IMG/VR virus record: IMGVR_UViG_3300043219_000165
Location: 1 to 41,959 of that record
Source of the DNA: a virus
Length of the DNA stretch: 41,959 nt
Strand: one strand, 5' to 3'
Of this stretch, positions 4,948-35,448 are shown in pieces. The position numbers were made by a program, and so were the translations under genes. Below the pieces are notes generated by a model. The model did no database searches. It was not told the origin of the DNA and worked only from the letters and a program-made list of their open reading frames with translations. Numbering within the stretch: position 1 is the stretch's first letter; each line of letters starts with the position of its first letter.

Positions 4948-5367
4948 CTATTGAACACCCAGACCTGCCGGGGGGCGGGGCTTTCCCGTGTACTTTTTGA
5001 CCGCCGCTGCGCTGGCGTCCGAACTAATATCGTCAACAGTAATGCTGTACCCGAGGAATGTGTATGTGCCGGGCTGCGGGATCGCACCGACAAAAGTTTT
5101 GCATTGGGCGCTACCTGGCACTCCGGTTACGGGAACCAGTTCATCAATGATCACTATCCCGCTCTGGCGCTCGGCCGTAATGCGTGTGTTGGCGAGATCT
5201 CCGTCAAGGATCGGATCGGCAACGGTCTGACCCGGCAACAGTTCGTACTCAGTCGGGTGAGTCCAGCAAACAATCGCATCCCGAGGGTAGGTCGGGGATT
5301 GTGCCGATGTGATCGTGAGCGATCCGAGCAGTAGTGCGGCGATAAAGAATTGAAACAGCTTTCTCAT
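4948..5367 (-). CDS. Secreted protein of unknown function in the lysis cassette
   Basis: A 139-residue protein with a clear Sec-type signal peptide: basic residues 2-3, a hydrophobic core at about 5-20 and an Ala-rich cleavage region near residue 22 ('ITSAQS'). The mature part is beta-rich, has two Cys that could form a disulfide, and a pattern (C-W-T-H-P-T then L-P-G-Q then P-G-T-Y-T-F) that resembles fibronectin type III-like or Ig-like sandwich domains. Its ATG overlaps the endolysin stop (ATGA) and has a GGAG site. It probably acts in the periplasm. Function is unknown; a binding protein or an accessory to lysis are options. Confidence 0.6.
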   Translation of the reverse strand: MRKLFQFFIAALLLGSLTITSAQSPTYPRDAIVCWTHPTEYELLPGQTVADPILDGDLANTRITAERQSGIVIIDELVPVTGVPGSAQCKTFVGAIPQPGTYTFLGYSITVDDISSDASAAAVKKYTGKPRPPAGLGVQ

Positions 5368-5819
5368 GTCAGTCTCCTAACACCCAATAGCCGCTTTGTC
5401 GGGTATCGGGATACTTTCACAGTGTCGGATTGATTGCCACCGAGCACTTCGATGAATTCGCCAAAACGGCCAGCATAAAAGCCTACATGCCCCGGAGCTT
5501 TGAGAACTTCCGGGCCGGGCTGGTCGCCAGATCCGCGTTTTAGGATGATGATATCGCCGGGTTCGGCGTTGTCCAGGTTGATGCCTTTTCCGATTATCAG
5601 CCATGACCGGGCGCGGAGATTCTTCGAGCGCGGCATACGCGCCAGCCAGCAGATGTAATTTACGAATGCGCTGCACCACGGCACTTCGTCATTTTCCGGC
5701 CAGCTCATATCGAGATTGAGCATTGACATGATCTGAGGGTTATCTACAGATCCACCGACTTCTTTCATGCCGGCGTATCGTTGCGCAAGATCGAAAGCGT
5801 GTTCCTTTGTAAAATTCAT
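5364..5819 (-). CDS. Endolysin: NlpC/P60-CHAP-like cell-wall hydrolase (TIGR02594-type)
   Basis: A 151-residue protein matching the small TIGR02594-type peptidoglycan hydrolases of phages. The catalytic Cys49 lies in W-C-S-A-F, the His111 block is G-H-V-G-F-Y, and the family signature L-G-G-N-Q-S-D is at 126-132. The segment with 'PGDIIIL' is the strand before the histidine, as in NlpC/P60 folds. Such enzymes cleave peptide or amide bonds in peptidoglycan. There is no signal peptide, so export would need the holin encoded 430 bases downstream. The ATG overlaps the stop of the PLxRFG gene (ATGA) and has a GAGG Shine-Dalgarno site. I am confident in the enzyme class, less so in the exact bond cut. 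Confidence 0.85.
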   Translation of the reverse strand: MNFTKEHAFDLAQRYAGMKEVGGSVDNPQIMSMLNLDMSWPENDEVPWCSAFVNYICWLARMPRSKNLRARSWLIIGKGINLDNAEPGDIIILKRGSGDQPGPEVLKAPGHVGFYAGRFGEFIEVLGGNQSDTVKVSRYPTKRLLGVRRLT

Positions 5820-8800
5820 CGGTTCGGCCTCTCAGTGAATCGCAGTTCTTGTTGGAGATATTGCAGTCGTCTATCGACAGCTATGCCGCCGACTGTTCGC
5901 ATATCGTAATCAGCTCGGGTTTGTGCGGACCGCAGAATCGTGTTCGGGTTAATCGGAAATCGAGGATTGGCCTTGTTCCAAGCAAGTACCCATTGCATCG
6001 CTTCACGCGCACCGCTTCGATCTCCCATTTTGTAGGCATTAAACAGGGTATTGAGAATGTGAGTGCGACGCGTTTTTAGCTTCGCTTCCATATCCTTGAT
6101 CGCCCGGTTTTGCTCGTAACGAAGGGTCAGATTGGCAGGCGTAAAACCCATGAATTGAACAGCGAGATCCCAACTGTTGAATTCCTCCGGCGTCATAATC
6201 AGATCTTTTTGATAGGTCTGCGCGCCCTGCGTCATAAAGCGAAATCCTTTCATAACGTCAGAAGCAGCCTTCGGCACGATTCGTTCCCACATTCGACCAG
6301 TATGTCCACCTTGAAAATCCGAAAAGCCTTGTGCCATATTCAAACCGATACCCATGATCGGCCCGAGTCCTTCGCCGGCCAGATGCAACAACAGATCTTT
6401 GCCACGAAGATTTTGCGGCATTTCCCGAATCCAGAGATTGTTCAGGCTGGCGCGACTCGATAGCGTTGCCTGAGTCATGGTGTCCCACGGTCCCTTCCAG
6501 ATCGCCTCGGATGCTGTTTCACCCCATGCCTCTGTCATCCACTTACGCAGCTCGGTGCGGGAGTCAAATGGTTCGTCGTCGTCGCCAAGCATTGTGTCGA
6601 GCAGAAATCTGACGCCGGCAACCAGCGGCCAGCCAGATAGGCCGGCAAATAAACTGGTCATTCCAATGATGCCGATGAATCGTTGTCTCGCTTCTATACG
6701 ATCCTGCTTTGGAATATCTTTGTTCTTCCAAATCCCGTCCTTGAAATCACGGATCAGCCTGTACTGCATATTCAGACTGTAATTGCGGAACAGGAATACC
6801 ACTCGACCCATATCGCCTTGCATCAGGCGAGGTCGGTTCGTATTGGTGTAATCGTAATGCGACATTTCGACCAGTTCTTCGGCCAATTCGACAGCCCTTT
6901 CATGCTTGTCCTGCTCTGTTCCTGTGTCGCCGGCAAACTTTCTGCGAGCAAGCCGGTACGCGGCCATAGCGGTAACGACGCGATTCATTTCTTCGGACTT
7001 GTGGAAAATCCATCCGGTCATTTTCATTATCCGCTCGCGAGTGTCACCGAATTCCGCACCTCGCTCGGCAAAACCCATCATTTCCCGAACTCGGGTTTTG
7101 GCAAACATGCCGATCTCATCGAAGTATTGCAGCGCAGCTTTTTCCCCACGATCCGGCGCTTCCAGCTGTGTCCCTGGCTGTGTCGGATCGTCAAACATAT
7201 CGTTGTGCAGCTTGCTCATATACTTTTCGATGGTGGGAGCTGTGGAGTATTCCTTCGACGCTTTCAACAAAGCCATGCCAGCGCCAGCACCCATGAATTT
7301 GGCGCGTAAGATCGGGTACGCTGAAATCGCGGTTTGTGTCAGGTTCAAAACGCCAGCTGCCGGCGACGTACTCAGGAACCACAGGAAACCGAACGCAGTC
7401 AGATTCGTAGCCCATGCCGCTGATTTCGGATTCATTGTGTATTCGTGTCGCTTCGCCAACTCTCTGGCAACCGGAACAGCCCAATCACCGTCATGCTCTG
7501 ATTCAGCTTTGATTTTTGCTCGCGCTCGATCAGCTGCATCCTGATCGAGTAAGGCATTATCTTGAGTGCCGTTTTCCTTTTGATATTTGTGATACAACCC
7601 TCGATATTCCGGTGCTGCCATCTCCCACAAAACATCGTGCATTGACATACCTTCGTATCCTTCCGGGCGGTAGTCGAGTTTTTCCATGTTGTCAATCAAG
7701 GCCGCTCGTTGCAGCAAAACTTCCGCTTCTACACCAGCGTCACGGAGTTTTCTGTTCAATTCATAACCGTGTTTGAGTTTTGCCAACTGGTGAGTGCTGT
7801 GAAATGTGTTATCTCCAAAGGCCCGCAAAGCATCATGCGTAAATCCAAGTCGGCCTTTACGATGAATGTAGGCTTTTCGGGCAGACATTTCCGGAAGTGA
7901 TCGGAGATACAACTGCCAGATCTCATCTTGAATCGCTGTGCCTGGTTGAGTCGTTTTCTCTCCTGTCTCCGGATCTGTAAAAACAACATCCGCTTCTTTG
8001 AGCATACCCGTTACCTTAGTAACGAAAGTCGGATCTATCTTATTGACCGCAGCAAAGTCAGTCGCCATTTCTTCTGCCGGGAATGCGACAAATTTCTGCT
8101 CGCGCAGCTCTGCGACCAACTTGTTACGCTCACTGCGTTTTTCTCGTTTGAAGAATCCGACGATTTCGCCAGTATCCGGATCTTGTGCAATAACCCAATA
8201 TCTGCCGAAACGCTGCAGCGGGAAATACGGCACGATCTTGCCGACTTCAAACTGTCTGCGTAGCTGCGTGATCAATTTCACTTTCAATGCTTGGTCAGCT
8301 TCGGTTTCCATGATGCGTTCTTCAAGACCGTGAATTACTCGAGTGCGTTGATCGGCATATGTATCCCGCACTTCCAGATAGATCGCCTGCGCTTCGGACA
8401 CCTTCATCGAATACGTTTCAACGTATTTGTCGGTGACCGGATCTAATTCTTTATGCGTGTAATCGACTTGTTCACCCATGCCGCCGAGCTTTTCCCAAAA
8501 CGGCATTAAAACCTTGTGATCTATCGCACGTTTGCGCCAAATCTTGCGTTGTGTCTTGTTCATCTTTTTGAACGTAGCAGCGTCCGGGGCTTGATACGCA
8601 ATCGGATCGACGCCTGCCAGTGTCGATGCGTGTATAAACTCACCGAGCAGCTTGGCCCCATCTTTGTTCTTGTTATTAAAAGCCAGCCATTTCTTTCCAA
8701 GAATGGCGTGACCTTCCATGAGCCGATTCATATACGCGTCCATGAGCTTCACTTCATTGACGTAATCTTTGACCGAAACCATGCCGTAACGAATAAAGTC

Positions 8801-9973
8801 TTTTAATTTCGACTGTGGTACGGCCATCAAAATACCTTCGATTTTCATATCGCCAGATTTGAGAATACTGTCGATCAGTCCGCGAAAGCCGCCCCTTTTT
8901 GTCGGGGTTGATTCTTGGGCAAGTTGCATTGCCGCGCCGTGTTTCGTTAAAACAGCCATTGGGTTGTCTGGATTGGCATCTACGTTGTCACGCTCGAATA
9001 TGTCGTCCACTTTGTATCTGAGATTCTTGCCGCTCCTTAACGCATTGTCGATAGCGTCACTTATTTCTTGATCCGTAGCTGTGTTGGTCAATCTGTCAAC
9101 TTCTGCTTGCGCGGCCTCGCGCGTCGGAAACCAAGTTCGCAACAGCTTGTTGCTTTTCAAACGAACCATGAAACCACCTTGCATTTCATTTGGGATGATT
9201 TCGTAATCTGGTCTTTTGCCTGTCACATCTTCAATATCTACCTGTTCGCGAGCTTCACTGAACAAGTCGCTAACGTCACCCGTTTCCAAATCTTCCTGCC
9301 CAATATTGCGCTCACGATCCCTTTTGCGTTGGAGGTCCGAGAGTTTTTGCGCTGCCAGATCAGCTCCAAACATATCGTCCTGCAGTTCTTCACGCTTCGG
9401 TGCTTTTTCTTTCCGCTCGGGGATCTCCTTGCCGAACAGATCCTTCATGTAGCGAAGCGCCGGCTCGTCGGAAAGAAACGGCTCGATATTCTCGATGTAA
9501 ATTTCCATTGCGTTTATTCGCTCGACACCTTCCAATGCTTGCAGAGCATTTAAGCCGCCATGTTCCTGCAACATCGTCAGGGCCAGCTCCGGGTCGAACT
9601 GTTTCAAAATCTCATGCAGATCTGCCGGCGGCATATCGAGCATGTCGAGGCGGTGATCCTTGTCGCGTTGCATACCGAGCCTCGGAAATACTCGCGCTTC
9701 TTCTTCCATCTTTACCGCAGTTTCCTTTGCGAATTCAGACGGTGACAATCTCCGGTCAGCCATTACGCCGCCACGTTCTTCCACCTGGTTGACTATGGTG
9801 TCACGTTCCTCGTCAAGGATCTGAACATACTCATCGACAGCATTTTGGTTCGCTGCATCCCGAGATACATCACCGACTCCGTAAATGTCGTCACGAATTT
9901 TGCGGATTGCGTCGGCATCATCTTTGCGAAGTAGCTTACCGGCTTTTCTGATACACGCTTCGAGTGAACTCAT
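5816..9973 (-). CDS. PLxRFG-domain polyvalent/ejection protein (1385 aa)
   Basis: A very large soluble protein carrying the block 'YFPLQRFGRYW' at residues about 578-588. This is the PLxRFG motif that names a domain common in giant phage polyvalent and internal virion proteins. The region after about 850 has hydrophobic patches mixed with long helices; around residues 1045-1070 the 'RNYSLNMQYRL' type segment resembles the large-polyvalent-protein LPD38 region. The N-terminal 300 residues are charged and helical. In podophages such proteins are packaged in the capsid and ejected with the DNA, where they may form a channel or act on the host; that role is inferred. The start overlaps the stop of the repeat protein (ATGA), and the stop overlaps the endolysin start. 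The length is in the range of T7 gp16-like ejection proteins. Confidence 0.75.
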   Translation of the reverse strand: MSSLEACIRKAGKLLRKDDADAIRKIRDDIYGVGDVSRDAANQNAVDEYVQILDEERDTIVNQVEERGGVMADRRLSPSEFAKETAVKMEEEARVFPRLGMQRDKDHRLDMLDMPPADLHEILKQFDPELALTMLQEHGGLNALQALEGVERINAMEIYIENIEPFLSDEPALRYMKDLFGKEIPERKEKAPKREELQDDMFGADLAAQKLSDLQRKRDRERNIGQEDLETGDVSDLFSEAREQVDIEDVTGKRPDYEIIPNEMQGGFMVRLKSNKLLRTWFPTREAAQAEVDRLTNTATDQEISDAIDNALRSGKNLRYKVDDIFERDNVDANPDNPMAVLTKHGAAMQLAQESTPTKRGGFRGLIDSILKSGDMKIEGILMAVPQSKLKDFIRYGMVSVKDYVNEVKLMDAYMNRLMEGHAILGKKWLAFNNKNKDGAKLLGEFIHASTLAGVDPIAYQAPDAATFKKMNKTQRKIWRKRAIDHKVLMPFWEKLGGMGEQVDYTHKELDPVTDKYVETYSMKVSEAQAIYLEVRDTYADQRTRVIHGLEERIMETEADQALKVKLITQLRRQFEVGKIVPYFPLQRFGRYWVIAQDPDTGEIVGFFKREKRSERNKLVAELREQKFVAFPAEEMATDFAAVNKIDPTFVTKVTGMLKEADVVFTDPETGEKTTQPGTAIQDEIWQLYLRSLPEMSARKAYIHRKGRLGFTHDALRAFGDNTFHSTHQLAKLKHGYELNRKLRDAGVEAEVLLQRAALIDNMEKLDYRPEGYEGMSMHDVLWEMAAPEYRGLYHKYQKENGTQDNALLDQDAADRARAKIKAESEHDGDWAVPVARELAKRHEYTMNPKSAAWATNLTAFGFLWFLSTSPAAGVLNLTQTAISAYPILRAKFMGAGAGMALLKASKEYSTAPTIEKYMSKLHNDMFDDPTQPGTQLEAPDRGEKAALQYFDEIGMFAKTRVREMMGFAERGAEFGDTRERIMKMTGWIFHKSEEMNRVVTAMAAYRLARRKFAGDTGTEQDKHERAVELAEELVEMSHYDYTNTNRPRLMQGDMGRVVFLFRNYSLNMQYRLIRDFKDGIWKNKDIPKQDRIEARQRFIGIIGMTSLFAGLSGWPLVAGVRFLLDTMLGDDDEPFDSRTELRKWMTEAWGETASEAIWKGPWDTMTQATLSSRASLNNLWIREMPQNLRGKDLLLHLAGEGLGPIMGIGLNMAQGFSDFQGGHTGRMWERIVPKAASDVMKGFRFMTQGAQTYQKDLIMTPEEFNSWDLAVQFMGFTPANLTLRYEQNRAIKDMEAKLKTRRTHILNTLFNAYKMGDRSGAREAMQWVLAWNKANPRFPINPNTILRSAQTRADYDMRTVGGIAVDRRLQYLQQELRFTERPNR

Positions 9974-12900
9974 TTGCTGATTATCCCTAGTGCAGTGAGC
10001 ACGACTGACATTGCTTCGTCGTCCTCGCGTTGGAGCTGACGTTGAACGACTTGCTGTTCTGTCAAAGCTATGGTCGGCGGCGGTCCTGGTGGTGGTGCAG
10101 CCGCGCCGGCTATGACCGGTGGTGGTGGTGGTGTCTCTTGGAGATCCGCGTTGACAGTCAGACTGATAAGTAGTGAGGCAGCTAAATTGCCTACGACTGA
10201 CAGCGCCGCAGCAATAGTCAGCACAAGCCCCATTGCCGCTCGAAGGTCGCCAGCCGCTTTAAGATCAGCAGCCATTGACAACACGATCTGCATATTCGCA
10301 TCGAGCTGTCCTGCGGCGTTGAGATCGGCCGCTACCGTCAGAGCGATATCGAGTGCAGCATTGAGATCGCCCGGAGATTCAAGATCCGCGACAATCGACA
10401 ATATGATGTTTGCCGCAGCATCCAGCCTGCCGGCCGCAGTGAGATCGGCCGCAACCGTCAGAGCGATCCCTAAATCAGCATTGAGATCGCCCGGAGATTT
10501 AAGATCCGCGATAACCAACAATATGATGTTTGCTGCAGCTTCCAGCTCGCCGGCTGCAGTGAGATCGGCCGCAACCGATAACACGATATCGAGTGCAGCA
10601 TTCAGATCGCCAGCCGCACGTAGATCGGCCGCTACCGATAACACGATATTGAGTGCAGTATCCAGTTCGCCAGCTGCAGTGAGATCGGCCGCTACAGTCA
10701 ATATGATGTTTGCCGCAGCATCGAGCTGGCCTTGCGCTTTCAAATCCGCAATGACTGAAAGAATAATCGGCAATGCGGCGTCGAGCTGGCCGGCTGCAGT
10801 CAGATCCGCTGCCTGAGTGAGAACCAAATCCAAAGCGGCATCGAGCTGGCCTTTCGCTTTCAACTCGGCGGCGACGGAGAGAACAATCGAAAGAGCGGCG
10901 TCGAGCTGGCCGGCTGCAGTCAGATCCGCTGCCTGAGTGAGAACCAAATCCAAAGCGGCATCGAGCTTGCCGGGCGCAGTCAGATCGGCCGCAACCGCCA
11001 ATATGATGTTTATCGCAGCTCGCAGCTCGCCGGCCGCGGTCAGATCGGCCGCAACCGCCAGAACGATATTGAGTGCAGCATTCAGATCGTCTGCTTCTGC
11101 TTCTGTAACATCCGCGACAACTGTCAATATGATGTTTGCCGCAGCATCCAGCTCGCCGGCTGCAGTCAGATCGGCTGCAACCGTCGCAACGATATCCAGA
11201 GCAGCATCGAGCGAACCCGGAGCATCAAGTTCGGCCACTACCGATAGCACTATTGCCAGGGCGGCTTGTAATTCGCCTCCGGCATCGAGGTCGGCCGCAA
11301 CCGTCAGAGCGATAAGTGCAGCTGTGCTTAATTCACCAGTCGCAGTGAGATCGGCTGCAAGGGTCAAGATAATGGATTGAACGGCGCTCAGTTCTCCTGT
11401 GCCTTTCAAATCCGCAATGACCGAAAGAATAATCGGCAATGCCGCTCGAAGCTCGCCGGCTGCAGTTAAATCCGCTGCTTGAGCGAGAACCAAAGCCAAA
11501 GCGGCATTGAGCTGGCCTTGTGCTTTCAACTCGGCGGCGACGGAGAGAACAATCGGCAATGCCGCTCGAAGCTCGCCGGCTGCAGTCAGATCTGCTGCTT
11601 GGGTGAGAACTATGTTCAAGGCGGCATCGAGCTGGCCTTGCGCTTTCAAATCCGCAATGACCGAAAGAACAATCGGCAATGCGGCATCCAGTCGGCCAGC
11701 TGCTGCAGTCAGATCTGCTGCCTGAGTGAGAACTATGTTCAAGGCGGCATCGAGCTGGCCTTGTGCTTTCAAATCCGCAACGACTGAAAGAACAATCGGC
11801 AATGCGGCATCGAGCTGGCCGGTTGCAGTCAGATCTGCTGCCTGAGTGAGAACCAAATCCAAAGCGGCATCGAGCTTGCCTTGTGCTTTCAAATCCGCAA
11901 TGACCGAAAGAACAATCGGCAATGCGGCTTGAATATCACCAGCTGCAGTCAGATCCGCTGCCTGAGTCAGAACCAAATTCAAAGCGGCATCGAGCTTGCC
12001 TTGTGCATCCAGATCGGCGGCGACGGCGACGACTATCGAAAGAGCAGCGGCGATATCTCCGACAGGCACCACTGCTGTCAGATCTATGACTTGGAAGGTC
12101 CGCTCCCTATCTGTATCGGCAGTCGGTGAGTCTTTGCCGATCTGCCATTGCATCGACATTGAAGTGACACCTGACTCACCAGTCACAGCTCTCGCCATCA
12201 CGGTCGGTGCAGTTAAATCAGTGTTGTCCTTGAGGCTCGCCATTTCTGCGCCTTCAAGCCCACCAGAACCGATAGAAAACTGACTCTCGACTCTTTCATC
12301 TTGTAAGGTGCTTGCATCCTGAACGTAGTTCGCCAAGACCAACACAATGCTGTCAGTGCTGTCGATATCAGGACTACCGGACATATCAACCATGTTGGCG
12401 TAACTGGCCGGTGCGGTATCCGAATCAACCGATGAATTATCAACTTCCAGCGAGAAATCATCGGTGATCTCGACCACCTGGAATGTTCGTTGCCTGCCAG
12501 TGTCCATGATCGGACTGCCATTGCGATCTTGCCACTGAATTGAGAACGTATGCGATGCCGCTGATACGCCGGTCTCTGCCCAAACCATTGATAAGCCATC
12601 TACTTCATTGGTTTGATCGCCACGATCAGAAAGGAACGGACCATCACGACTTCCATCAATCGCAAAGCGATACTCAGCAGCGGGATCTCCTACAGCGCCT
12701 AATACCTGCACACCAGCAATAAACAACAACAGCGAACCTGTCTGTGGAGTTTGCGCTTGCGATAGGTTAGCCATGTTGGACCAAGACGCGCTCGCGTTAT
12801 CGGCCGCGCTGGTCGCTAGGTCAACAAGTATCGACGCATTGTCTTCGATCTCGACCACTTGGAAAGTGCGAGTGAAATCGGTGTCCATTGTCGCAACGCC

Positions 12901-13227
12901 AGATCTGTTCTGCGCCTGAACAGCAAACGTATGCGAGCCGGCGCTGAGTCCGGTAAGCGCGAACATCATCGTGAGACCACTAAACTCGTCCGACGCATCA
13001 GCAAAAGCTGACACTACCGGGCCGACAGGCGAGCCGCCGCTTGTGAACCGATACTCGGCACAAGCGTCACTAGAGGCATTCTGAATATGCACCAGCGACA
13101 TCATCAGGAGCACAACGCTGTCAGTACCGGCAACCGTCACGGTGGACGACATGCCTGTAATATCAGCGAACGATCCAGTGACTACGTAAGTCGAGGTCAG
13201 GGATAGATCGGTGAGCAGATTAGCCAT
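9970..13227 (-). CDS. Giant repeat protein: three beta modules plus 32 x 20-residue repeats
   Basis: A 1085-residue protein of unusual design. Residues 1-386 are three related modules of about 127 residues, each ending in R-T-F-Q-V and containing 'EYRF' or 'ESQF' and 'SHTF' or 'SMSM' strands, so they look like beta-sandwich domains. Residues 387-1029 are 32 tandem copies of a 20-residue unit close to T-A-A-G-x-L-D-A-A-L-x-I-V-L-S-V-A-A-D-L. The C-terminus has a Pro/Gly-rich linker and a short charged helix. It has no signal peptide. It lies among virion genes, so a fibre, appendage or long structural shaft is plausible, but I do not recognise the family. Its ATG is 2 bases after the upstream stop. 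Long open frames on the plus strand here are a by-product of the repeats. Confidence 0.75.
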   Translation of the reverse strand: MANLLTDLSLTSTYVVTGSFADITGMSSTVTVAGTDSVVLLMMSLVHIQNASSDACAEYRFTSGGSPVGPVVSAFADASDEFSGLTMMFALTGLSAGSHTFAVQAQNRSGVATMDTDFTRTFQVVEIEDNASILVDLATSAADNASASWSNMANLSQAQTPQTGSLLLFIAGVQVLGAVGDPAAEYRFAIDGSRDGPFLSDRGDQTNEVDGLSMVWAETGVSAASHTFSIQWQDRNGSPIMDTGRQRTFQVVEITDDFSLEVDNSSVDSDTAPASYANMVDMSGSPDIDSTDSIVLVLANYVQDASTLQDERVESQFSIGSGGLEGAEMASLKDNTDLTAPTVMARAVTGESGVTSMSMQWQIGKDSPTADTDRERTFQVIDLTAVVPVGDIAAALSIVVAVAADLDAQGKLDAALNLVLTQAADLTAAGDIQAALPIVLSVIADLKAQGKLDAALDLVLTQAADLTATGQLDAALPIVLSVVADLKAQGQLDAALNIVLTQAADLTAAAGRLDAALPIVLSVIADLKAQGQLDAALNIVLTQAADLTAAGELRAALPIVLSVAAELKAQGQLNAALALVLAQAADLTAAGELRAALPIILSVIADLKGTGELSAVQSIILTLAADLTATGELSTAALIALTVAADLDAGGELQAALAIVLSVVAELDAPGSLDAALDIVATVAADLTAAGELDAAANIILTVVADVTEAEADDLNAALNIVLAVAADLTAAGELRAAINIILAVAADLTAPGKLDAALDLVLTQAADLTAAGQLDAALSIVLSVAAELKAKGQLDAALDLVLTQAADLTAAGQLDAALPIILSVIADLKAQGQLDAAANIILTVAADLTAAGELDTALNIVLSVAADLRAAGDLNAALDIVLSVAADLTAAGELEAAANIILLVIADLKSPGDLNADLGIALTVAADLTAAGRLDAAANIILSIVADLESPGDLNAALDIALTVAADLNAAGQLDANMQIVLSMAADLKAAGDLRAAMGLVLTIAAALSVVGNLAASLLISLTVNADLQETPPPPPVIAGAAAPPPGPPPTIALTEQQVVQRQLQREDDEAMSVVLTALGIISK
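10141..12069 (-). repeat. 32 tandem 60-bp coding repeats
   Basis: The stretch is 1929 bases long and encodes 32 in-frame units. All are 20 codons except one with 21 codons (an extra Ala near 11700) and one with 22 codons (an insert near 11100 reading T-E-A-E-A). Adjacent units alternate in parts, with K-A-Q-G-Q-L units followed by T-A-A-G-E-L units, so a 120-bp super-repeat of two units is visible between about 11400 and 12000. Copies near the 5' end of the gene are more alike than those near the 3' end, which fits recent duplication there. Such arrays can change copy number by recombination or slippage. Confidence 0.9.
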
Positions 13228-13229
13228 CT

Positions 13230-13688
13230 TTAGATGGGCGCATTCCGATTGTCACGAATGATTACTCTTGCCAATTTGCTGATGTAAAGCCTCAGATCTG
13301 CATTCGTCATGGTGCCGATATTCGGCCATTGCGTTTCCAGTGCAATGTAATCAAGCGTATCCTGATTGGCTCGATCCTGATCAGCTGTGTGCTGTGTAGC
13401 ATCGTGACTGTTCAAAATACCACTGAGTATCGAGCCTTGCGGCACTGTCAGGGCAGTCGTAAAAACGAATCGAATCTCGCCGGGATCAGCAAAGTCTTCA
13501 ACACCAGATACACCATCCCTCGAAATCAGTTTCGGTGCTGCAGTCGGTTCACCAACAAATCGTGAATTACCTTTCCTTTGGAAACCGGCTAAGAATACCG
13601 ACTCAAAAGGCAACACTGACGCTACCAATTCCTCGGTTAGCAAATCTCGGTTGAAATCCTTTAATAGAGTGCGAATTTCGTCTGCCAT
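13230..13688 (-). CDS. Hypothetical virion-region protein (152 aa)
   Basis: A soluble 152-residue protein with no recognised motif. It is mixed alpha/beta; the N-terminal 25 residues form a helix with acidic and basic residues, the middle contains beta-like stretches ('IRFVFTTALTVPQ') and the end is a basic helix. Start ATG has a GGAGG Shine-Dalgarno site 7 bases upstream. The next gene follows after 2 bases. Position between the tail-fibre-like Gp80 gene and the repeat protein suggests an assembly or structural role with the repeat protein, but nothing in the sequence proves it. Confidence 0.6.
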   Translation of the reverse strand: MADEIRTLLKDFNRDLLTEELVASVLPFESVFLAGFQRKGNSRFVGEPTAAPKLISRDGVSGVEDFADPGEIRFVFTTALTVPQGSILSGILNSHDATQHTADQDRANQDTLDYIALETQWPNIGTMTNADLRLYISKLARVIIRDNRNAPI

Positions 13689-13690
13689 GT

Positions 13691-14173
13691 TTAGCCTCCA
13701 AGTCCTAGTCGATGATCGTCTTCTGCATCAGTCAAATTCCCAAGCAAACGACTATCCCTGCTGATATCTCCTGCCCACGCTTTTGCTCGCCGGCCGGCTC
13801 GCCGTATCATCTGGTGGAGCCGGATACCGTCTTCATAAGTCACTTCCTTGCCCACTCCGTCAAAAAATAAACCGACCAACGGAGGGTTTACTCTCACTTC
13901 GTAATCCTTGACGTTCGGGACCAGTGTTGACCGACGAAAACCTTTATGCGGTCGTGGAGAATCATTGAGATCTTCGATATCCACATCACGCCAGAACGTA
14001 GCGGGCGCACGATCATACCGGGCTGCTTGCTTGCAGCCCATTCGAAGTGCCGCCGCGATTTTGAGCGCGGTTTGGTAGGGAACTGTGGGTCTTAGATCAC
14101 CCAAGCGAATGACAACCAAATCCTGATTGTCATCCGCTCCCATCTGCGTGCGTTTTAGCAATGTTTCTTTCAT
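13691..14173 (-). CDS. Hypothetical virion-region protein (160 aa)
   Basis: A 160-residue soluble basic protein with no recognised family. It has a helix with 'TALKIAAALRMGCKQAARY' in the first half, a central segment with 'VKDYEVRVNPP' of beta character, and a C-terminal Arg-rich region followed by an acidic end. The start has an AAGGAA site about 9 bases upstream. It is 2 bases from the following gene, so the pair is likely co-translated. The first half resembles a small DNA- or protein-binding helix bundle, but this is only a composition-based guess. Confidence 0.6.
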   Translation of the reverse strand: MKETLLKRTQMGADDNQDLVVIRLGDLRPTVPYQTALKIAAALRMGCKQAARYDRAPATFWRDVDIEDLNDSPRPHKGFRRSTLVPNVKDYEVRVNPPLVGLFFDGVGKEVTYEDGIRLHQMIRRAGRRAKAWAGDISRDSRLLGNLTDAEDDHRLGLGG

Positions 14174-14197: not shown

Positions 14198-14650
14198 TTA
14201 GTCTATCGACACATCGAGTGCGCCGATTGCAAACTGCGGATTGACACCGTTGTTGACGATCAGATCTACAGTCACTTGACCCCAAATCTGCGCTACACCA
14301 GCACCAGACGACGCAAAACCGAGAATAACATCAGTGATCGTAACCGGACCACCAGCTGTCATTTCACCGAATTGATTCAACACATCGTTATCAACCGTGC
14401 CGGTAAGAACTGTCCAGCCGGCCGTTGATCGCGCATTGGCTACGCGAGCATAACCTGTGTAGGTCGTTTCGCTGTCGGTTTGCAGAGTCGTCGTGTCACT
14501 GACCGCATCACCCGTATGCAACGAGGCGAATAAATCGCCCGGTGCTGCAGAAGGCAATAAACCGGCCGCATCACCGACATTCGGAAAAGTCGTATTGGTG
14601 AAAAAGTGATCGAGGAAATCGTCTTCCGCGAGATTAGTGAAAGCACTCAT
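14198..14650 (-). CDS. Gp80-like phage tail-fibre-associated protein
   Basis: A 150-residue beta-rich protein. The N-terminus follows the pattern of the small phage structural proteins often annotated as tail fibre or Gp80-like: a helix ending in 'DHFF', then 'LFASLHTGDAVSD', then 'ETTYTGYARVA', and a C-terminal half of beta strands with 'PVTITDVILGFA'. Homologues in siphophages and podophages are virion components found near fibre genes. The start has GGAGG 7 bases upstream and overlaps the stop of the upstream gene (ATGA). Confidence 0.6.
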   Translation of the reverse strand: MSAFTNLAEDDFLDHFFTNTTFPNVGDAAGLLPSAAPGDLFASLHTGDAVSDTTTLQTDSETTYTGYARVANARSTAGWTVLTGTVDNDVLNQFGEMTAGGPVTITDVILGFASSGAGVAQIWGQVTVDLIVNNGVNPQFAIGALDVSID

Positions 14651-15035: not shown

Positions 15036-15656
15036 TCATGCTTCGGCTCGCGTCGTAGCGGTGTCGATCAATTTAGTCTCGTCGTTACGATGGAACTTGT
15101 GCATGAACCTTAAACCTGTGTTCGATTTCGATAAAATTTCGATAATGAATTTTGTTCCAGCTCGCGCAAAATCGTGCGTCCACTGATTTCCTGTTTTGTC
15201 GATTGAAACTATTTGCTGCACAAGGCCAGTTCCGTCCCGACGCAAAACATGATCCCAATTACTAGACTGTTTCGGCGTTTCCGTTACATCGGCTTTCGGT
15301 TTTGATACAACGAGCTGCGGCGGCGGTAATTCGTCCGCATCCTGCATTTCCTTGAGCAGTTGAAACGGCCTTAATACTTCTTCCGGTTTCGTTTCTTGTG
15401 TTCCTTCTTCTTTCGGTTTTTCTTCATTTTCAACTCCGCTCAGTCGTTCCATAATCTCCGTCATTTTCCCCATGAGCGAATAAAACTCAGAGGCCGGAGC
15501 CGGTACTACATCGGCTCGAGTAGTTTCTCCCGACAAAGATTGGCTACCGTTTACCTCCGGCTCCGGCTTTTCCGGTTGTGAACCGAGCTTACGTATGACG
15601 CTTACGCCCTTACGCTTTTTCTCTCGATTCAAATCTTTTTGGCTAATCGTTCTCAT
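15036..15656 (-). CDS. Hypothetical protein with low-complexity N-terminus (206 aa)
   Basis: A 206-residue protein. Residues 1-25 are basic, and about 25-115 are Glu/Pro/Lys-rich and probably disordered, with a short helix at 'LMGKMTEIMERL'. The last 75 residues are a folded basic region with repeated 'V..I.K.GN.W.H.F.R.G.KFI.EI..K' and 'TGLRFMHKFHR' elements. These look like two copies of a short beta motif. The ATG overlaps the TGA of the giant polyvalent gene (ATGA). No family was recognised. It may be a DNA- or virion-binding protein made together with the polyvalent protein. Confidence 0.6.
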   Translation of the reverse strand: MRTISQKDLNREKKRKGVSVIRKLGSQPEKPEPEVNGSQSLSGETTRADVVPAPASEFYSLMGKMTEIMERLSGVENEEKPKEEGTQETKPEEVLRPFQLLKEMQDADELPPPQLVVSKPKADVTETPKQSSNWDHVLRRDGTGLVQQIVSIDKTGNQWTHDFARAGTKFIIEILSKSNTGLRFMHKFHRNDETKLIDTATTRAEA

Positions 15657-18600
15657 AGACAGCTCTTTATGCGTTCGCAGGCTTGTTTACGTTTTTCGTT
15701 TTGCGTCAGCAATTCCTGTGCATCCCGTTCGATGGTGAAAACCTCACCGGTTTCTTCGACTTCAACTTCTTCCTCAAGGGAGATCCCTGCGAGCGAACGG
15801 CCGCGACGTTTGATGGCTCCCTGTGCTTCCATCATCAAGCCGATAACATCGTTTTCAGTCCACTGTTCAACAAAGCCCATTTTGCGAAGTATTTTCCGAA
15901 TCCTGGCAACAAACTTTTTAATGATGGGAAGATTCGGAAAATGCTCTGCTCCGTGCGCGACCAACTCGTCGGCCATTTCGATTTTGTCTGCATCCTTGCC
16001 TACGTCCAGACCGTAAACATCGACAATTTCATCAGCCCGCTCCTGCAGCTGCGTCGGCACGTTGTTGGCGAGATCCAGAAGCATCGGATTCAACTCATCA
16101 CCGAATGCGAGTTGCAATCCCGCATGTGTTACTTCATGGATGGTCACCCGGTTTGCATGAGGCGCATCCACCATTTTGTCAGAGAATAAATAAATGTCGC
16201 CGTTTTCAGGATTGGTGACGCCGGCCACATCTGTCTGACCTTCTCTTTCCATTTCAGCGACGATTTCAGCTGGCGCTTGCGTGTAATCATCGAGAACAGA
16301 AATATTAGCGCCCTCCACTGCATCACGCAGCCTCTTAGTATCCCGTTCTACCTGTGGCCGATCATAAGCGCGAGTTACCGCTTCTCGTTCTTCTACTACG
16401 TCGAGAGCTTCGTCTAAAGTTTCCAATTCCCTAGTAAATCTATCCAGATATTCGTCGGCCGTTTCTGCCTGTTCCGGCAACTTCCTGAGTGTTTCGGCTA
16501 CCCATTTTTTATTGGGCGCATTGACTGATTCTTTTGCATCTTCGACGCGAGCATCAGTCCGAATTTTCTTGCTGTAACGGATTCCGCGTTTTGTTCGGCG
16601 TTTTATCTGCTCTTGCTTGCGTGTCGGTCTTACTGCTACTGCTTCACTTGCCGGACGTTTGGTCGCCGCTTTGTCGTAAACCCATTTCTTGAACCTCGCT
16701 ATCGGCATTGTCGTGACCACACCGACCTTCCAGCCTTTCTCGTAATTGCGCTTGTATGCTTTTACCGCGTCCAGCTCGCTCGCGTACCCGAGCATGACCT
16801 TGTGCTCGTCAAAATTACCGTTCTCATCGACCTGATCAACGATGTAAACCTGATTATTAAAATCAGTCTGAATATCTGGATTGACGTTTACATCTACCTC
16901 ATCACCATCGACACCTTCAGTGCCTTCAAATTCTCCGTAATGGCCCCACTGCCGCATACCGTTGCGTGACGTACCGTGAGGATTCTCGATCCTAATCGGC
17001 ATAGTTTTGATTGTGATTGGTACTTTTTTGTATTCGCCAGTTCTCTGCTGCTCTTTTGACGGATACGGAAGATCACTCTCTGGCGACGTAGCCGCTTCCT
17101 CCCCCATCGTGTCCAGTTCTTCACGACTCGGCAGATCTTCAAACCCCGGGATTTCACCGAGTTCTTCGTCTTCGGTAAGTCCTTCGGCCTGTATCGCTTC
17201 ACGTTCTTCGCGATCTTCGATCTGAGCTTCGGTTTCCGGCGTTGCACCTGGTTGGCGTATGTAGAAACCCGCAATTTCTCTGTCAGCAGTAAACCCGAGG
17301 CGACTATAGAAGCGATCCAGACCTTCACGCGGCGTCAGCTCATCTTCTCTGAGGCCCGGCTCAAGTCGGATCAGCAAACTGTTTTCATCAGCAAACTCGG
17401 ACAGATCGCGTATGGCCTGAGATCCCTTTCGCTGATTCTGCATACCCACCGGCACTTCAATGTCGTAAAGCTCGATCTCGCCTTCGTTGTTGATCGCTAC
17501 CTCAAAACTTTCCAGACCGTACTTCTTTCTGATCTTTTCTCCGAGCCTGAATAGCCGTTGTCCGATGGTGCCTTCGGCTTCCCCTGGTACTGCTGGCGCA
17601 GCTGGCGCAGCTGGCGCAACTGGCACAGCTGGCGCAGCTGGCGCAGCCTCGGGTTTCGGCATGTATTTGACTGTGTACTTCGCGCCTGTCTCGTAAAATC
17701 CAACACCTTCAATTATTTCTATCGTGCCTTTGTCCACCAATCCTTGTAGAGCTTGCCCGCCGACATTTCGCGCACTGAGATCGTTTACAAGCACTTCACC
17801 GTTTGGCGATATCTGTGCCAGTGCGACTGCCTTTACCAGTGCTTCTTTTTGGAGCTTGGTGAGTTTTTTCTTAGTCGCGTATTTCGCCTTGCGCTCGACC
17901 ATATCCGCGACAGGCTGCGCAGCTGCTTCGTCAATTTCTGTTGTCGGAAGCGTGGCAACTGCATCCTTGATGCGTTGCGCGATTTCGATCTTCGTGCCTT
18001 GATCCGATATGCCTATGCGTATCGCGTAGGCTTGCAGACTGGTTTTATCCATCCTTGAAAATGACTCTGCCGAATCACCCAATATCCTGACGCGCAAAGT
18101 AGCCGGCATCCAATCCAGCTTAAATCGTTGATCTGGTGCTGCTGGTGCTAGTGCTGCTACTGCCGCTGTTACTGCCGTTGCTTCTTCGGCTGGTGTTGGT
18201 GCTGGTTCTGCTTGGCGTCGCGCCTTTACCGTTCCTTCTGCTGTGAGATCCCATTCTTTCCCGAGCACGAAATCCTTGCCGCGATACTTGACCCGGATTC
18301 CGTCATAGCCTTCTCTCGCTAGACGACCAACAGGCGTCGTCTTTTCATTGTATGTAGTGGTTTCGCCTTCGTATTCGTCTGCCGGGATTACTTCGGCAAA
18401 TGAAAATCTTCCCATCCCGTACCCGGTAACAACGAATTGTCTGCCGCCCAGGACAACTGGTTTCTTGATCCTGCCCTCTGGGATAGTTGCTGCGGCAGAT
18501 GTGTCGCTGGCTATTTGATCGAGATCGAGTTCCTGTATTTCTTCGGCCGACAATGGGAATTGGGCTTGTGGTTCAAGTGCGTCCTTGAGTCGTTGTGCCA

Positions 18601-21439
18601 GATCGTCAGCGCGAGGATGCTTTGCTCTTTTAAGCCGCCCAAGATCCGCGACTGCTATGTTGCGGTCCGTCGAATTTGATTCAGGCGTCAGTCTGCTGAT
18701 TTGATCGCCCAGATCGTCAGCAACATCGTCCAGCTCCGGAACGTCGAACATATCGGCGGCTTCCGGTTCCATTTCCGGAGCGCCCTCAGTCTCCCAGACT
18801 ATTTGCCAGCGACCTTCCTCGATCTCCGTCAATACCGCGACACGGTTGTCTTTTCGATAGGTCTGTTCGGCCGCATCGAATTTCCAGCCATCGGCAAAGA
18901 AAGCGTCTTCGAGATCGTTGACCTTTTCTTCAGTCGTTTCGACCATGCCGGTGTCGCCGGGAATCATTTCATCGACAATTCTCTTGCCTTCTGCCCGTTC
19001 AAATGCGATCTGTTCTTCTTCGGTTTGTGGTGCGCCTTCGACAGGTTTTTCTCGGATAACACCATCGCCTGCCGCTTCACTCTGCAGTATGGCCCGGACG
19101 AGATCTCGATTAGATTCGCCCTCCATGCGCTCCGTGATTGTTTCGTTATCCCCGTATGTCACCGTGACATTGCCGATGGTGTCCTCGGTGATGTGAGCTT
19201 CAACCCCATCGACTTCGATATCCCACTCACCAGCAATGCCTTCCTGTCGCTGAGTTTTTTGCGCGAGTTCGTCCAGGGCAGCTTGATATCGGTCCTGCTC
19301 GGCTCCGAACTGTGCGCCCTCGGCCGTGTACACCGGATTGCCGCCTAAAGTCTCCATGATGGCGTCAAGGGCCGCGTGAGGCTCCCCCTTGCCATGCTCA
19401 TCAACTGCGACGAATCCAAGCTCTGCGGCCCACTCAGTAGCCTCATCAGGCGTCATGCCGCCCCTGCGGAATGCTCGTCTGCTGCCGTAGGCGTTTTCTG
19501 GCTCCGCAAATTCAGCCGGATCGACGCCTTCTGCCGCCCACGCGTCCTTATCCAGCCCGCGGCCCTTCGCCGCAGCGACGATGATGTTGTCTCGCCGCGG
19601 ATTGAATGCTTTGGTGGTCGGCGGGATATCAGGCTTCGGTGGCTCGACCAGTTCATCTGGCATAACCGGTTCGCCCATCTTGCTCTTTTTGCGATCCGCA
19701 ACTGTCGGTATGGGTTTCAGTAGATCTTCGGCCGCGCGCGTCTTTTGTTTTTCTCGCGCTTCCTCCATAGCTATGCCAAGCGTCGTAGTTGCACGACCCG
19801 CAGTCGGGACCGGCAAGCCGGCGACGATCTCACCTTCAGCCAGCTGTGTGCCTGACAGGAATAGCTCTGTTTCTTCCTGCCGCTGACCCTTCGGCGTCAA
19901 TCGCTCGGCAAGTGATAAACCCCTCAAATGTGGTAATCGGCCTTTATCGAATTCTTGCTGCAGTGCTTCCAATCGCTGCATACGTTCTTCTTCGGCGTCG
20001 ATATCCCAAATTTCCCGAAGCTCGTCTTCGTATTCTCGTTGCTGTTGCTGCGCAATGGTTTCCGGTTCGCCTGGCAACGAACCGCGATCCGCAGCTTCCC
20101 GCGCACTCCGCCTGCGGAATTCTTCATCTATCTGAGATTGCCGTTGCGCTTCGAGCGCCTGCCCACGTTCTTCTTCCATGATGGTCATGTCTTTGGCGCG
20201 CATGAAATCTGCTTCTTCGTCCATGTAATCTCGAAGCGCTTGGTCTTCTTCTTCTCGTTCGATCCGTTCCAGTTCGGCCAGTTCGGCATCGACGGCCGCA
20301 TCGAGTTCGTCCTGCTCTGCCAGCGCGATTGCAGCTAACGGCGATTCTGCATCCGGTAATACTTGGCCTGTCGCATCGAGCGGCGTGACTATCCCTGCCG
20401 CCCCACCCATCATGCCGCCAGCCATCGCGCCGCCTACCGCTTCTTCGAGTACGCCTTCGTAAGTCGGCCTATCAAAGCCGGCTCGCTGCATGGCGATGTT
20501 CTCACCCCTTTTCTCAGCACCAGACTGCAGGAATTCCTGAGTGGCTTCGCCACCAGCTCCAATACCGATAGATTTGAATCTGGTTGTGCCGCCCAATAAC
20601 GGATATTTACGAGCGTACCCGCCGACGATTGCGCCTAATGGTGCTGAGAGAATGAATGTCGAAACCATGTTCCGATAGAAAGTGTCGCCGGCGGCTGCTT
20701 TCGCCAAGATCTCTTTGGCCCTTCTGGCGCGTTCGGCCGGATCGGCATTTTCGAGTGCCAGGTAAACAGCCCGGAAATCGGCGTTTCCCATCAGATCTAC
20801 ATGGCTCATTGCCATGATTTCTTCTTCGACGCCTGCTGCGGATCCCGGCGCGGCTACCCCAGACTCACCGAGGCCGTATCCGATCGCACCGGCTGTTCTG
20901 GTCGGAACCTGAACCGTTGTTCCGGCTGCTGTTTGCACGGCCTTCGTCATGCCTGCTGCCGCCAGCCCGCGCGTGAGTATAGATCCGACACCCATGCCGG
21001 CCGCTGTGCCGAGCAGCGATTGAGCGGCGATCAGCTTGGCCTTGCTCCACTTATTGTTTGTCCAGAGCTGGCCTTCGTCGCGGGAAGTGAACTCCGTGGA
21101 CATTGCCCGTTTGGCTTGCGGCGACAGATCGTCCATGAATGACTGAGACAGATCCATAGCGCCTGCCTGTAGCGATTCGCCCCACTCGAAGTTATTGAAT
21201 AGCCAGCCAACTCCCGCGCCGATCTGAATACCACCGGACGCGACCATCTTTCCGTAGTCGCTCCACAACGGATCTTCTTCTTCCAGAATCGAAGTTAGAA
21301 ATTCTCGCTGTGTACCCGGATATTGAGTGAAGACGTTGCGACGTTCGCCCGGCCGAAGCTCATCGTCAGGAACATCGAATTCGCCTGCCGCATAACGGTC
21401 GTCATATTCCTTCTCAAGTTGTTCATATCGGGAAGCCAT
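15653..21439 (-). CDS. Giant polyvalent protein: SAP-like, GNAT-like, pyrophosphatase-like and HExxH domains
   Basis: A 1928-residue multi-domain protein of the large polyvalent type described for phages. In order there is an N-terminal region with hydrophobic helices (about 140-190 and 255-285) that could insert in a membrane, then long charged coils (350-650) and a beta-rich middle. A SAP-like helix-loop-helix lies near 1105-1158 and a GNAT-like acetyltransferase near 1290-1400. An inorganic-pyrophosphatase-like domain spans about 1455-1595, with D-G-D-E-V-D-V at 1511-1517. A metallopeptidase-like domain carries H-E-V-T-H at 1768-1772. Such proteins are thought to be packaged and injected with the DNA to act early on the host; that is known for the class and inferred here. 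The start overlaps the upstream stop (TAATG) and has a poor Shine-Dalgarno site, so coupling is likely. Confidence 0.82.
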   Translation of the reverse strand: MASRYEQLEKEYDDRYAAGEFDVPDDELRPGERRNVFTQYPGTQREFLTSILEEEDPLWSDYGKMVASGGIQIGAGVGWLFNNFEWGESLQAGAMDLSQSFMDDLSPQAKRAMSTEFTSRDEGQLWTNNKWSKAKLIAAQSLLGTAAGMGVGSILTRGLAAAGMTKAVQTAAGTTVQVPTRTAGAIGYGLGESGVAAPGSAAGVEEEIMAMSHVDLMGNADFRAVYLALENADPAERARRAKEILAKAAAGDTFYRNMVSTFILSAPLGAIVGGYARKYPLLGGTTRFKSIGIGAGGEATQEFLQSGAEKRGENIAMQRAGFDRPTYEGVLEEAVGGAMAGGMMGGAAGIVTPLDATGQVLPDAESPLAAIALAEQDELDAAVDAELAELERIEREEEDQALRDYMDEEADFMRAKDMTIMEEERGQALEAQRQSQIDEEFRRRSAREAADRGSLPGEPETIAQQQQREYEDELREIWDIDAEEERMQRLEALQQEFDKGRLPHLRGLSLAERLTPKGQRQEETELFLSGTQLAEGEIVAGLPVPTAGRATTTLGIAMEEAREKQKTRAAEDLLKPIPTVADRKKSKMGEPVMPDELVEPPKPDIPPTTKAFNPRRDNIIVAAAKGRGLDKDAWAAEGVDPAEFAEPENAYGSRRAFRRGGMTPDEATEWAAELGFVAVDEHGKGEPHAALDAIMETLGGNPVYTAEGAQFGAEQDRYQAALDELAQKTQRQEGIAGEWDIEVDGVEAHITEDTIGNVTVTYGDNETITERMEGESNRDLVRAILQSEAAGDGVIREKPVEGAPQTEEEQIAFERAEGKRIVDEMIPGDTGMVETTEEKVNDLEDAFFADGWKFDAAEQTYRKDNRVAVLTEIEEGRWQIVWETEGAPEMEPEAADMFDVPELDDVADDLGDQISRLTPESNSTDRNIAVADLGRLKRAKHPRADDLAQRLKDALEPQAQFPLSAEEIQELDLDQIASDTSAAATIPEGRIKKPVVLGGRQFVVTGYGMGRFSFAEVIPADEYEGETTTYNEKTTPVGRLAREGYDGIRVKYRGKDFVLGKEWDLTAEGTVKARRQAEPAPTPAEEATAVTAAVAALAPAAPDQRFKLDWMPATLRVRILGDSAESFSRMDKTSLQAYAIRIGISDQGTKIEIAQRIKDAVATLPTTEIDEAAAQPVADMVERKAKYATKKKLTKLQKEALVKAVALAQISPNGEVLVNDLSARNVGGQALQGLVDKGTIEIIEGVGFYETGAKYTVKYMPKPEAAPAAPAVPVAPAAPAAPAVPGEAEGTIGQRLFRLGEKIRKKYGLESFEVAINNEGEIELYDIEVPVGMQNQRKGSQAIRDLSEFADENSLLIRLEPGLREDELTPREGLDRFYSRLGFTADREIAGFYIRQPGATPETEAQIEDREEREAIQAEGLTEDEELGEIPGFEDLPSREELDTMGEEAATSPESDLPYPSKEQQRTGEYKKVPITIKTMPIRIENPHGTSRNGMRQWGHYGEFEGTEGVDGDEVDVNVNPDIQTDFNNQVYIVDQVDENGNFDEHKVMLGYASELDAVKAYKRNYEKGWKVGVVTTMPIARFKKWVYDKAATKRPASEAVAVRPTRKQEQIKRRTKRGIRYSKKIRTDARVEDAKESVNAPNKKWVAETLRKLPEQAETADEYLDRFTRELETLDEALDVVEEREAVTRAYDRPQVERDTKRLRDAVEGANISVLDDYTQAPAEIVAEMEREGQTDVAGVTNPENGDIYLFSDKMVDAPHANRVTIHEVTHAGLQLAFGDELNPMLLDLANNVPTQLQERADEIVDVYGLDVGKDADKIEMADELVAHGAEHFPNLPIIKKFVARIRKILRKMGFVEQWTENDVIGLMMEAQGAIKRRGRSLAGISLEEEVEVEETGEVFTIERDAQELLTQNEKRKQACERIKSCL

Positions 21440-24396: not shown

Positions 24397-24831
24397 TTAG
24401 TTATACAAAAGATATGCACCGACGCATCTCTTAAAGCCAATACGCTCGGCGAGCAACCACGCTCGCGAATCAACGTATTTAGAATCAGCAACAAACCCGG
24501 CAACTTGAATCGCTCGTCGGGATTGCACCCATATTTTGAAAGCTCGCAACAACTTCGCTCCGTCGCCGCGTCGTTCCGAATACCACAAAGGCACAAAGCA
24601 ATTCTTGCGTTGCGCCCACAGGTTTTCACTGGTCAAACCGATCAGCACACCCTTCAAGCCTTCGTGAGGACTTTCACTTATCCAGGCGAAGTGTTTTGCC
24701 GAACTTATCGCCTGAATGATGCCTTTGCGGATCTTTACGAGATCAGGCTTTAGCTGCGGATATTGCGAAGATAAAGCTATCGCGAGATCGAAGATCGCGT
24801 CAACATCAGCCAATATTGCTGGTCTGATCAT
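24397..24831 (-). CDS. GNAT family N-acetyltransferase
   Basis: A 144-residue protein starting 'MIRPAILADVDAIFDLA', the typical first strand and helix of GNAT enzymes. A central strand reads 'FAWISE', and the C-terminal 'VDSRAWLLAERIGFKR' is the usual final part. The ATG overlaps the TGA of the Hint-protein gene (ATGA), so I use it rather than the longer frame that starts at 24903. The acetyl-CoA loop (usually R/Q-x-x-G-x-G/A) appears as 'ERRGDGAKLLRA', which fits. GNAT proteins at this place in podophages are of unknown substrate. The cargo could be a host or virion protein; nothing here decides it. Confidence 0.75.
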   Translation of the reverse strand: MIRPAILADVDAIFDLAIALSSQYPQLKPDLVKIRKGIIQAISSAKHFAWISESPHEGLKGVLIGLTSENLWAQRKNCFVPLWYSERRGDGAKLLRAFKIWVQSRRAIQVAGFVADSKYVDSRAWLLAERIGFKRCVGAYLLYN

Positions 24832-34524: not shown

Positions 34525-35448
34525 CTATTCAGTTGAGTCCCATTTGATGATGCGCGCTTGCACAGCATCAGTGTGGACAATCCCGTAACCCAAGAGTGCG
34601 TACCAGGCGATGCCCCGAGAACGACCGTAGTCGGTGGGGATCTTGCCTCGAATTTCCTCTTGAATCGAAAACGCCTCGACGACAGTATCGGAGCCGAAGA
34701 AGAAAATGCCATCGGATAAAGCCCAACCTTCCGATGCAATATTCGTCTGCTCGCAATACCTTATGCCTTCGTGGCGACCCTTTTCGCCGTTCATAATGAC
34801 ATGCCAACCTTCAGTGACAAACTGATGGATAGCTTCGAGCGAATCCTTCAACGGGCGAAGGGTAGTCGGTCGAGCGATAGCCATATAGTTGTTACCGTCG
34901 AATGTTGGAATATCCCGCTCGGTCAGCTCATCGGCGAAAATCTTGCTGTGGTCGTCATTGAACGCGTTCGTTGGCGCTCCCGAGGGAACTCCATTGGTCG
35001 TGAACGTGACGGCCGTAGCCGATGTACTAACTCCGCGTAATGGCGTCAACTCGAACTGCGCATTTGCAGCTGAATCGAGCGCCTTCCGGGCGTCGTTCTT
35101 CAGGACTTTGTGAATGATTTCCGTTACCGGATGCTCACTCAAATCGTCCAGTTTCTTCGTGTATGGAACACTGTTGCCGAATTCCGTCACCGTCAAACTC
35201 GACTGCGTGATTGTGAAATTCGATTCAGGCATTACATCAGTTTCGTTCAGGGTTCCACCCTGGTCAGCAACGTCTGAATAAATGTTCCAGTTGAACACAT
35301 CGCCTTTGCCTTTTCCGAATGCCTCTCGGGCATCACAAAACTGACGAAAGCGCACCATTGGCTGTAAAGCCGTTCTGAGCTTGCGGCTCAGATTGGGTGA
35401 CCACATGAAGCCACCCAAAGCGTTTGTCTGCCAAACTTGTCCGGCCAT
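34525..35448 (-). CDS. Major capsid protein (HK97-fold type)
   Basis: A 307-residue protein with the layout of an HK97-like coat protein: an N-terminal arm ('NLSRKLRTALQPMVRFRQFCD'-like helix), a central part with 'KGDVFNWNIYSDV', a long beta-rich domain and a C-terminal 'GIAWYALLGYGIVH' strand. It follows the scaffold-like gene by 28 bases and has the strongest Shine-Dalgarno site here (AAGGAGGAATTGTC before ATG), as expected for an abundant product. Terminator and decoration genes follow. It resembles the N4-gp56/P22-type coat proteins of podophages. Confidence 0.8.
   Translation of the reverse strand: MAGQVWQTNALGGFMWSPNLSRKLRTALQPMVRFRQFCDAREAFGKGKGDVFNWNIYSDVADQGGTLNETDVMPESNFTITQSSLTVTEFGNSVPYTKKLDDLSEHPVTEIIHKVLKNDARKALDSAANAQFELTPLRGVSTSATAVTFTTNGVPSGAPTNAFNDDHSKIFADELTERDIPTFDGNNYMAIARPTTLRPLKDSLEAIHQFVTEGWHVIMNGEKGRHEGIRYCEQTNIASEGWALSDGIFFFGSDTVVEAFSIQEEIRGKIPTDYGRSRGIAWYALLGYGIVHTDAVQARIIKWDSTE

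Follow-up and report, generated by a model that had tools for sequence, protein, structure and literature searches.

The window, i.e. the whole stretch of 41,959 bases analysed here, is in itself an entire virus record. It contains on the minus strand a gene coding for a putative adhesin of 1085 aa, which is located in a cassette with several smaller genes and flanked by two genes for very large polyvalent-type proteins. The features are as follows.

5816-9973, minus strand: very large polyvalent-type protein of 1385 aa with LPD39 and a DarB-like C-terminus, flanking the cassette
9970-13227, minus strand: whole gene of the putative adhesin (ORF, 1085 aa, ATG start), consisting of a three-module head, a stalk of 32 units and a C-terminal piece
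9973-10140, minus strand: C-terminal piece, residues 1030-1085, a proline-rich linker followed by the charged stretch QREDDEAMSVVL; proposed virion-docking end, judging by its sequence and the C-termini of relatives
10141-12072, minus strand: stalk, residues 386-1029, 32 tandem units (29 of 20 aa, two of 21 aa and one of 22 aa) with the consensus TAAGQLDAALNIVLTVAADL, delimited by unit counting and period statistics
12082-12471, minus strand: module 3, residues 253-382, predicted C1q/TNF-like jelly roll (module alignment, AlphaFold2, Foldseek)
12472-12852, minus strand: module 2, residues 126-252, predicted C1q/TNF-like jelly roll (module alignment, AlphaFold2, Foldseek)
12853-13227, minus strand: module 1, residues 1-125, predicted C1q/TNF-like jelly roll (module alignment, AlphaFold2 with pLDDT mostly 70-90, Foldseek)
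13230-13688, minus strand: 152-aa protein directly upstream of the adhesin, with homologues in all 8 of the related records, the sister contig counted among them
13691-14173, minus strand: 160-aa cassette protein, found in 7 of 8 records, with 27-35% identity outside the sister contig
14198-14650, minus strand: 150-aa protein of Pfam family PF23140 (Podophage GP4 fiber I protein gp80), found in 7 of 8 records, with 58-61% identity outside the sister contig
15653-21439, minus strand: very large polyvalent-type protein of 1928 aa with an InPase domain, flanking the cassette
34525-35448, minus strand: major head protein
38427-40859, minus strand: portal

The same strand also contains genes coding for tail and LamG-bearing structural proteins. 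The PF23140 homologue, located three genes upstream in the same cassette, is a neighbour of the adhesin and not the adhesin itself. With this fibre-family gene nearby and the portal and major head genes present in the window, the placement of the gene among virion genes, proposed in an earlier note made from the letters of the DNA alone, holds good. The protein was called giant in that note, and 1085 aa is indeed a considerable length, but the neighbouring ORFs of 1385 and 1928 aa make this size a relative one. Large proteins, of phrog_9880, are also encoded near the adhesin gene in the phage of relative L010. Other genes on the minus strand of the window include one at 5364-5819 coding for a CHAP-type, tail lysozyme-like protein (phrog_1259, E 5.5e-24) and one at 24828-26576 coding for a 582-aa Gly-rich structural-type protein, the C-terminal part of which resembles a Hint (intein-like) domain, with Pfam Vint (PF14623) matching the protein at E 1.8e-4, under the cut-off of the family. 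An acetyltransferase-like gene at 24397-24903 in the window is similar to those located after the adhesin gene in L011 (6203-6748) and L015 (9474-10058; phrog_1249). The adhesin itself recurs with 100% identity over 1085 aa in a separate 61,701-bp sister contig (L002 or G001), the portal and head proteins of which are also identical to those of the window and which may supply the missing parts of the window's phage.

The three N-terminal modules share 31-39% identity with one another (blastp E 1e-13 to 1e-26), and the module-end motif is found at residues 120, 247 and 376. The three related modules of about 127 residues reported earlier are therefore real, with the correction that RTFQV is spelled in the last two. 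The count of 32 tandem units was reproduced as well, though extra residues occur in three units, falling around Gly4 of the unit, while the description of the units as near-identical was overstated, the mean pairwise identity being 60%. These counts of modules and units can be read directly from the translated gene. The autocorrelation of unit identity reaches 0.53, 0.59 and 0.46 at lags of 20, 40 and 60 residues versus 0.04-0.23 at other lags. Between units, DNA identity at codon positions 1, 2 and 3 is 63, 79 and 37%, respectively, which indicates that the gene is coding and that selection acts on the protein rather than on the DNA. Tandem arrays with periods of 60, 120 and 243 bp detected by TRF in the stalk DNA, together with unit pairs reaching 95% DNA identity, point to block duplications of one, two and about four units.

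No Pfam family, including those of C1q and TNF, matches the adhesin at E≤1. Sequence searches of the PDB gave chance-level matches only, to designed helical proteins at E 0.06-0.8, which were rejected as relatives and put down to chance of composition, and no structures were found when the PDB was searched with module and repeat profiles. Among 50,697 phage records there was one weak match to the repeats, gp27 of Microbacterium phage Magritte (OR553905; E 2e-9, 31% identity over 250 aa), and the claim that no described phage family has this combination agrees with these results. The C-terminal peptide had no match in the phage records, nor did the L010 and L011 proteins when these records were searched by tblastn, and in the loci examined the C-terminal motif was not seen at the end of any other protein. 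In IMG/VR, whole-protein and repeat-profile searches retrieved the identical sister contig only; eight relatives, all in uncultivated phage contigs, were recovered by the module profiles only, and a scan of one genome collection yielded no relatives. Nor did the literature searched, most subscription journals being outside its coverage, contain a description of three head modules in a single chain joined to a stalk with a variable number of repeats.

The AlphaFold2 model of residues 1-506, built from an alignment of eight sequences, contains three all-beta modules with pLDDT mostly 70-90, each predicted to be a jelly-roll beta-sandwich of about 130 residues. Its best PDB matches found with Foldseek are the single-chain C1q globular heads 5hkj and 5hzf (E 3e-11 and 6e-11; TM 0.64 and 0.63 by target), and the single-chain APRIL-BAFF-BAFF 4zch is matched as well; more than 400 columns are aligned with the single-chain trimers, at a sequence identity of 7-10% between the head and C1q/TNF structures. 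Single modules match the TNF-like lectins 2wq4 and 9ib9, the C1q and TNF-like lectin matches have a probability of 1.00, and one of the viral predicted structures matched is named C1q domain-containing. The tandem modules look like a covalent pseudo-trimer head in this model, the packing of which resembles 5hkj and 4zch but comes from a shallow alignment (eight sequences) and may echo the network's memory of C1q. In the C1q/TNF superfamily three jelly rolls form one trimer, which the predicted packing resembles (5hkj, 4zch; Foldseek E 3e-11), and the A, B and C chains of C1q evolve separately, as do the adhesin modules of 125-130 aa, each position on its own. However, in C1q the modules are on separate chains, 5hkj and 4zch being engineered fusions, whereas the three modules of the adhesin are naturally arranged in tandem in one chain.

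The eight relatives are L010, L011, L012 (truncated at the contig end), L014, L015, L017, L018 and L031, and all nine proteins, the window's included, possess exactly three modules. In a tree of the modules from eight proteins, modules 1, 2 and 3 form three separate clades (support 100/98, 96/94 and 100/99, respectively), so the triplication predates these phages; one clade per module position is as expected for fixed places in a covalent heterotrimer. Module 3 of the window clusters with those of L015, L017 and L018, and module 1, with weaker support, with those of L010, L011 and L014, which suggests exchange within the head too. The number of stalk units of the 20-residue kind is four in L014, L015, L017 and L031, five in L018, 22 in L011 and 32 in the window, the window's units being matched by hhalign to those of the other relatives of this kind with a probability of 97 (E 3e-11). 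L010 has a stalk of an unrelated kind with 18 units (ASGAPSITKPTSTG...), mostly 21 or 23 residues long, which have no detectable relation to the other repeats.

Around the gene, L017 and L018 share 93-97% DNA identity; the two adhesins, 484 and 504 aa in length, are exactly one unit apart. Between L010 and L014 the DNA match (82.5%) begins at the start codon and stops where module 3 ends, covering nothing but the three modules: the heads share 84-85% protein identity versus 41-44% for the adjacent gene, and the stalk, C-terminus and flanks are not common to the two. Taken together, these two pairs indicate that the length and type of the stalk change independently of the head, and both the gain or loss of units and the swapping are evident from the aligned genes themselves. 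It had been suggested that the protein is an appendage whose length could vary by repeat number; the range of 4-32 units and the near-identical pair bear this out for the length, and a structural appendage is probable. In the same L017/L018 pair, the 152-aa neighbour gene has a replaced middle part (L017 7545-7876, L018 5202-5527), with 93-97% DNA identity on both sides; the two neighbour proteins are 58% identical overall, and this middle part appears to be a separate hypervariable site of exchange.

The portal and major head proteins of the window match the sister contig only and not the 40.5-kb and 69.3-kb relatives. The latter relative contains terminase, portal and head proteins of its own, and its terminase was not found in the window's sister contig. 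The portals of this relative and of the window fall in one PHROG, so the two phages should be regarded as distant rather than proven unrelated. Most of the related records are fragments, which makes any single absence weak evidence. No P22-type portal was found in the records. The phage carrying the adhesin is probably short-tailed.

We consider the chances to be about even that the protein is a virion-borne adhesin with a distal C1q-like head, a variable stalk and a C-terminus by which it docks on the virion. Modules 1-3 are predicted to pack in one polypeptide as a pseudo-trimeric globular head, which would be the part binding a surface ligand, perhaps a glycan. The stalk of 32 units would be rigid and of beta type, most likely a monomeric beta-solenoid like that of filamentous haemagglutinin with one coil per unit, setting the distance which the head reaches, and this reach would be tuned by gain or loss of whole units. 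The short C-terminus would dock the adhesin on the virion, possibly via the 152-aa neighbour, and head, stalk and docking end would be swapped separately between phages, giving new combinations. The full reading, namely a C1q-like heterotrimer head formed by one natural chain and carried by a monomeric beta-solenoid stalk, with reach tuned by whole 20-residue coils of a one-polypeptide fibre and with the three parts separately exchanged between phages with distant capsids, is put forward tentatively, as somewhat less than an even proposition.

The receptor-binding parts of phage fibres are usually C-terminal and fast-evolving, and the N-terminal position of the head and its 51-63% identity to the window's across the relatives count against the proposed polarity. 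The protein could be oriented the other way, with the conserved head attached to the virion and either the variable stalk or its C-terminus exposed and contacting the receptor, as in most tail fibres. This arrangement fits the usual polarity of an N-terminal virion anchor and an exposed C-terminal part (PMC13082707), and the complete divergence of the stalk beside a conserved head. It is, nevertheless, rather less probable, since the heads of L010 and L014 are 85% alike though their neighbours and C-termini differ, the C-terminus of only 20-56 residues is small for a receptor-binding domain, and the fold matches of the modules include TNF-like lectins. Moreover, the window and L010 are alike in their charged type of C-terminus and have the most similar 152-aa neighbours (64% identity), and the SRHIxxFIN type goes with the other neighbours, L014 bearing SRHIEKFIN despite sharing its head with L010. 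The C-terminus, unlike the head, therefore follows the cassette around it, suggesting, from few sequences, that the C-terminus docks and the head is distal.

As regards the stalk, conserved residues that are hydrophobic or small occupy the even positions of the unit, and more polar, variable ones the odd positions; the hydrophobic moment is 1.65 at 180 degrees and 1.05 at 100, and conservation is periodic at two residues only (0.59 versus ≤0.16 elsewhere; permutation p 0.001). The alternation of hydrophobic residues mentioned in the earlier note is therefore present in both hydrophobicity and conservation. From this pattern the stalk is very likely to be of beta type, and a monomeric solenoid is fairly probable, about 15 nm long and thus probably modest if each unit makes up one solenoid coil of 0.48 nm. 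The two AlphaFold2 runs disagree: with residues 1-506 the stalk strands form a beta-solenoid-like chain (pLDDT about 50), and with the last nine units there is one helix per unit (pLDDT about 60-70, pTM 0.39). Since AlphaFold2 has a known tendency to produce spurious beta-solenoids from repeats (PMC11795689), the fold was assigned from periodicity and not from the models, the helical run being set aside as proof for its pTM and the beta run equally for this tendency. Of the beta-solenoid, trimeric fibre shaft and helical rod all left possible at first, the periodicity favours the beta forms.

Filamentous-haemagglutinin beta-solenoids (PF05594) also have alternating repeats of about 20 residues, and this family matches the whole protein of L011 at 22.1 bits (cut-off 21.5) and 10 of 14 repeat segments at E<1. 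The window's own repeats are under the cut-off (12.0 bits versus 21.5), and no other filamentous-haemagglutinin or two-partner-secretion region is present. Pfam TPR and DsrH matches to single repeat segments were discarded as composition-driven, and a match of the repeats to PHROG 27049 was weak and uninformative.

Phage fibres are usually homotrimers, and trimeric shafts are the norm for them. Three chains might be wound together through their repeats as a triple beta shaft, one end of which would bear nine modules; the alternating beta pattern would fit such a structure. It is nonetheless unlikely, as every relative already has its modules in threes in a fixed order and the modules are modelled as one jelly-roll trimer with no need for the chains to trimerise; the predicted single-chain pseudo-trimer argues for a monomeric over a trimeric shaft. 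Still less probable is an alpha-rod stacked from one helix per 20-residue unit, for which the Ala-rich composition, the helices modelled in the last nine units and the N, D or P at unit position 11, which could cap helices, may be adduced. The low pTM of that model, the strict two-residue alternation of hydrophobicity and conservation, the homologous L015 and L031 units reading MAFTLTADL with Thr at alternate places, and the swapped-in stalk of L010 (GAPSITKPTSTG), rich in Pro, Gly, Ser and Thr and unlikely to be helical, all speak against it. That the protein is not part of the virion but a secreted or cell-surface phage product, e.g. an exclusion or host-interaction factor, is very improbable given the position of the gene inside a structural block beside fibre-like and virion-associated genes, even though the cassette is common to phages with distant head genes.

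Host recognition is the role attributed to the C1q-domain proteins of other phages (PMC3909814, PMC7468147, PMC5773508), and the preferred reading, a virion adhesin with a distal C1q-like head, is in line with this role, with a predicted C1q-like domain found here within a virion structural block. The marine and cryoconite examples (PMC3909814, PMC7468147) and gp30 of tectivirus Toil (PMC5773508) are of the same fold class, located near fibre genes and highly exchangeable. The likeness is at the level of fold class: in Toil gp30 and the marine examples the C1q-like domain comes after an N-terminal part, whereas the adhesin has three N-terminal modules followed by the repeat stalk. Receptor-binding proteins of the C1q type are therefore already known as a kind, and what appears to be new is the combination of a triple head in one chain with a stalk of variable repeat number. 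Magritte gp27 (OR553905) is likewise a structural-region protein and possesses AxFxGxGxLxA repeats of 20-22 residues, but a GDPD domain occupies its upstream part instead of C1q-like modules; profile comparison of its repeats with the L011-type ones is weak (probability 36), and the resemblance could be convergent. In the Alteromonas phage host-recognition modules, an attachment cassette is likewise exchanged between distant phage backbones, although the proteins are different (fibre and chaperone) and no comparable variation in repeat number appears in the abstract of that study (PMC10579305).

The family is unannotated and is missed by standard databases, since most of the sequence consists of repeats that diverge completely, whereas the head is retained. 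If the proposed structure is true, a fibre made of one chain, its trimeric head held together covalently, would do the work of a homotrimer in another way and would be easy to express and study. The naturally occurring related heads on stalks of 4-32 units, together with the pair one unit apart, make the effect of stalk length on adsorption directly testable, and the family may represent a natural length-adjustable attachment device.
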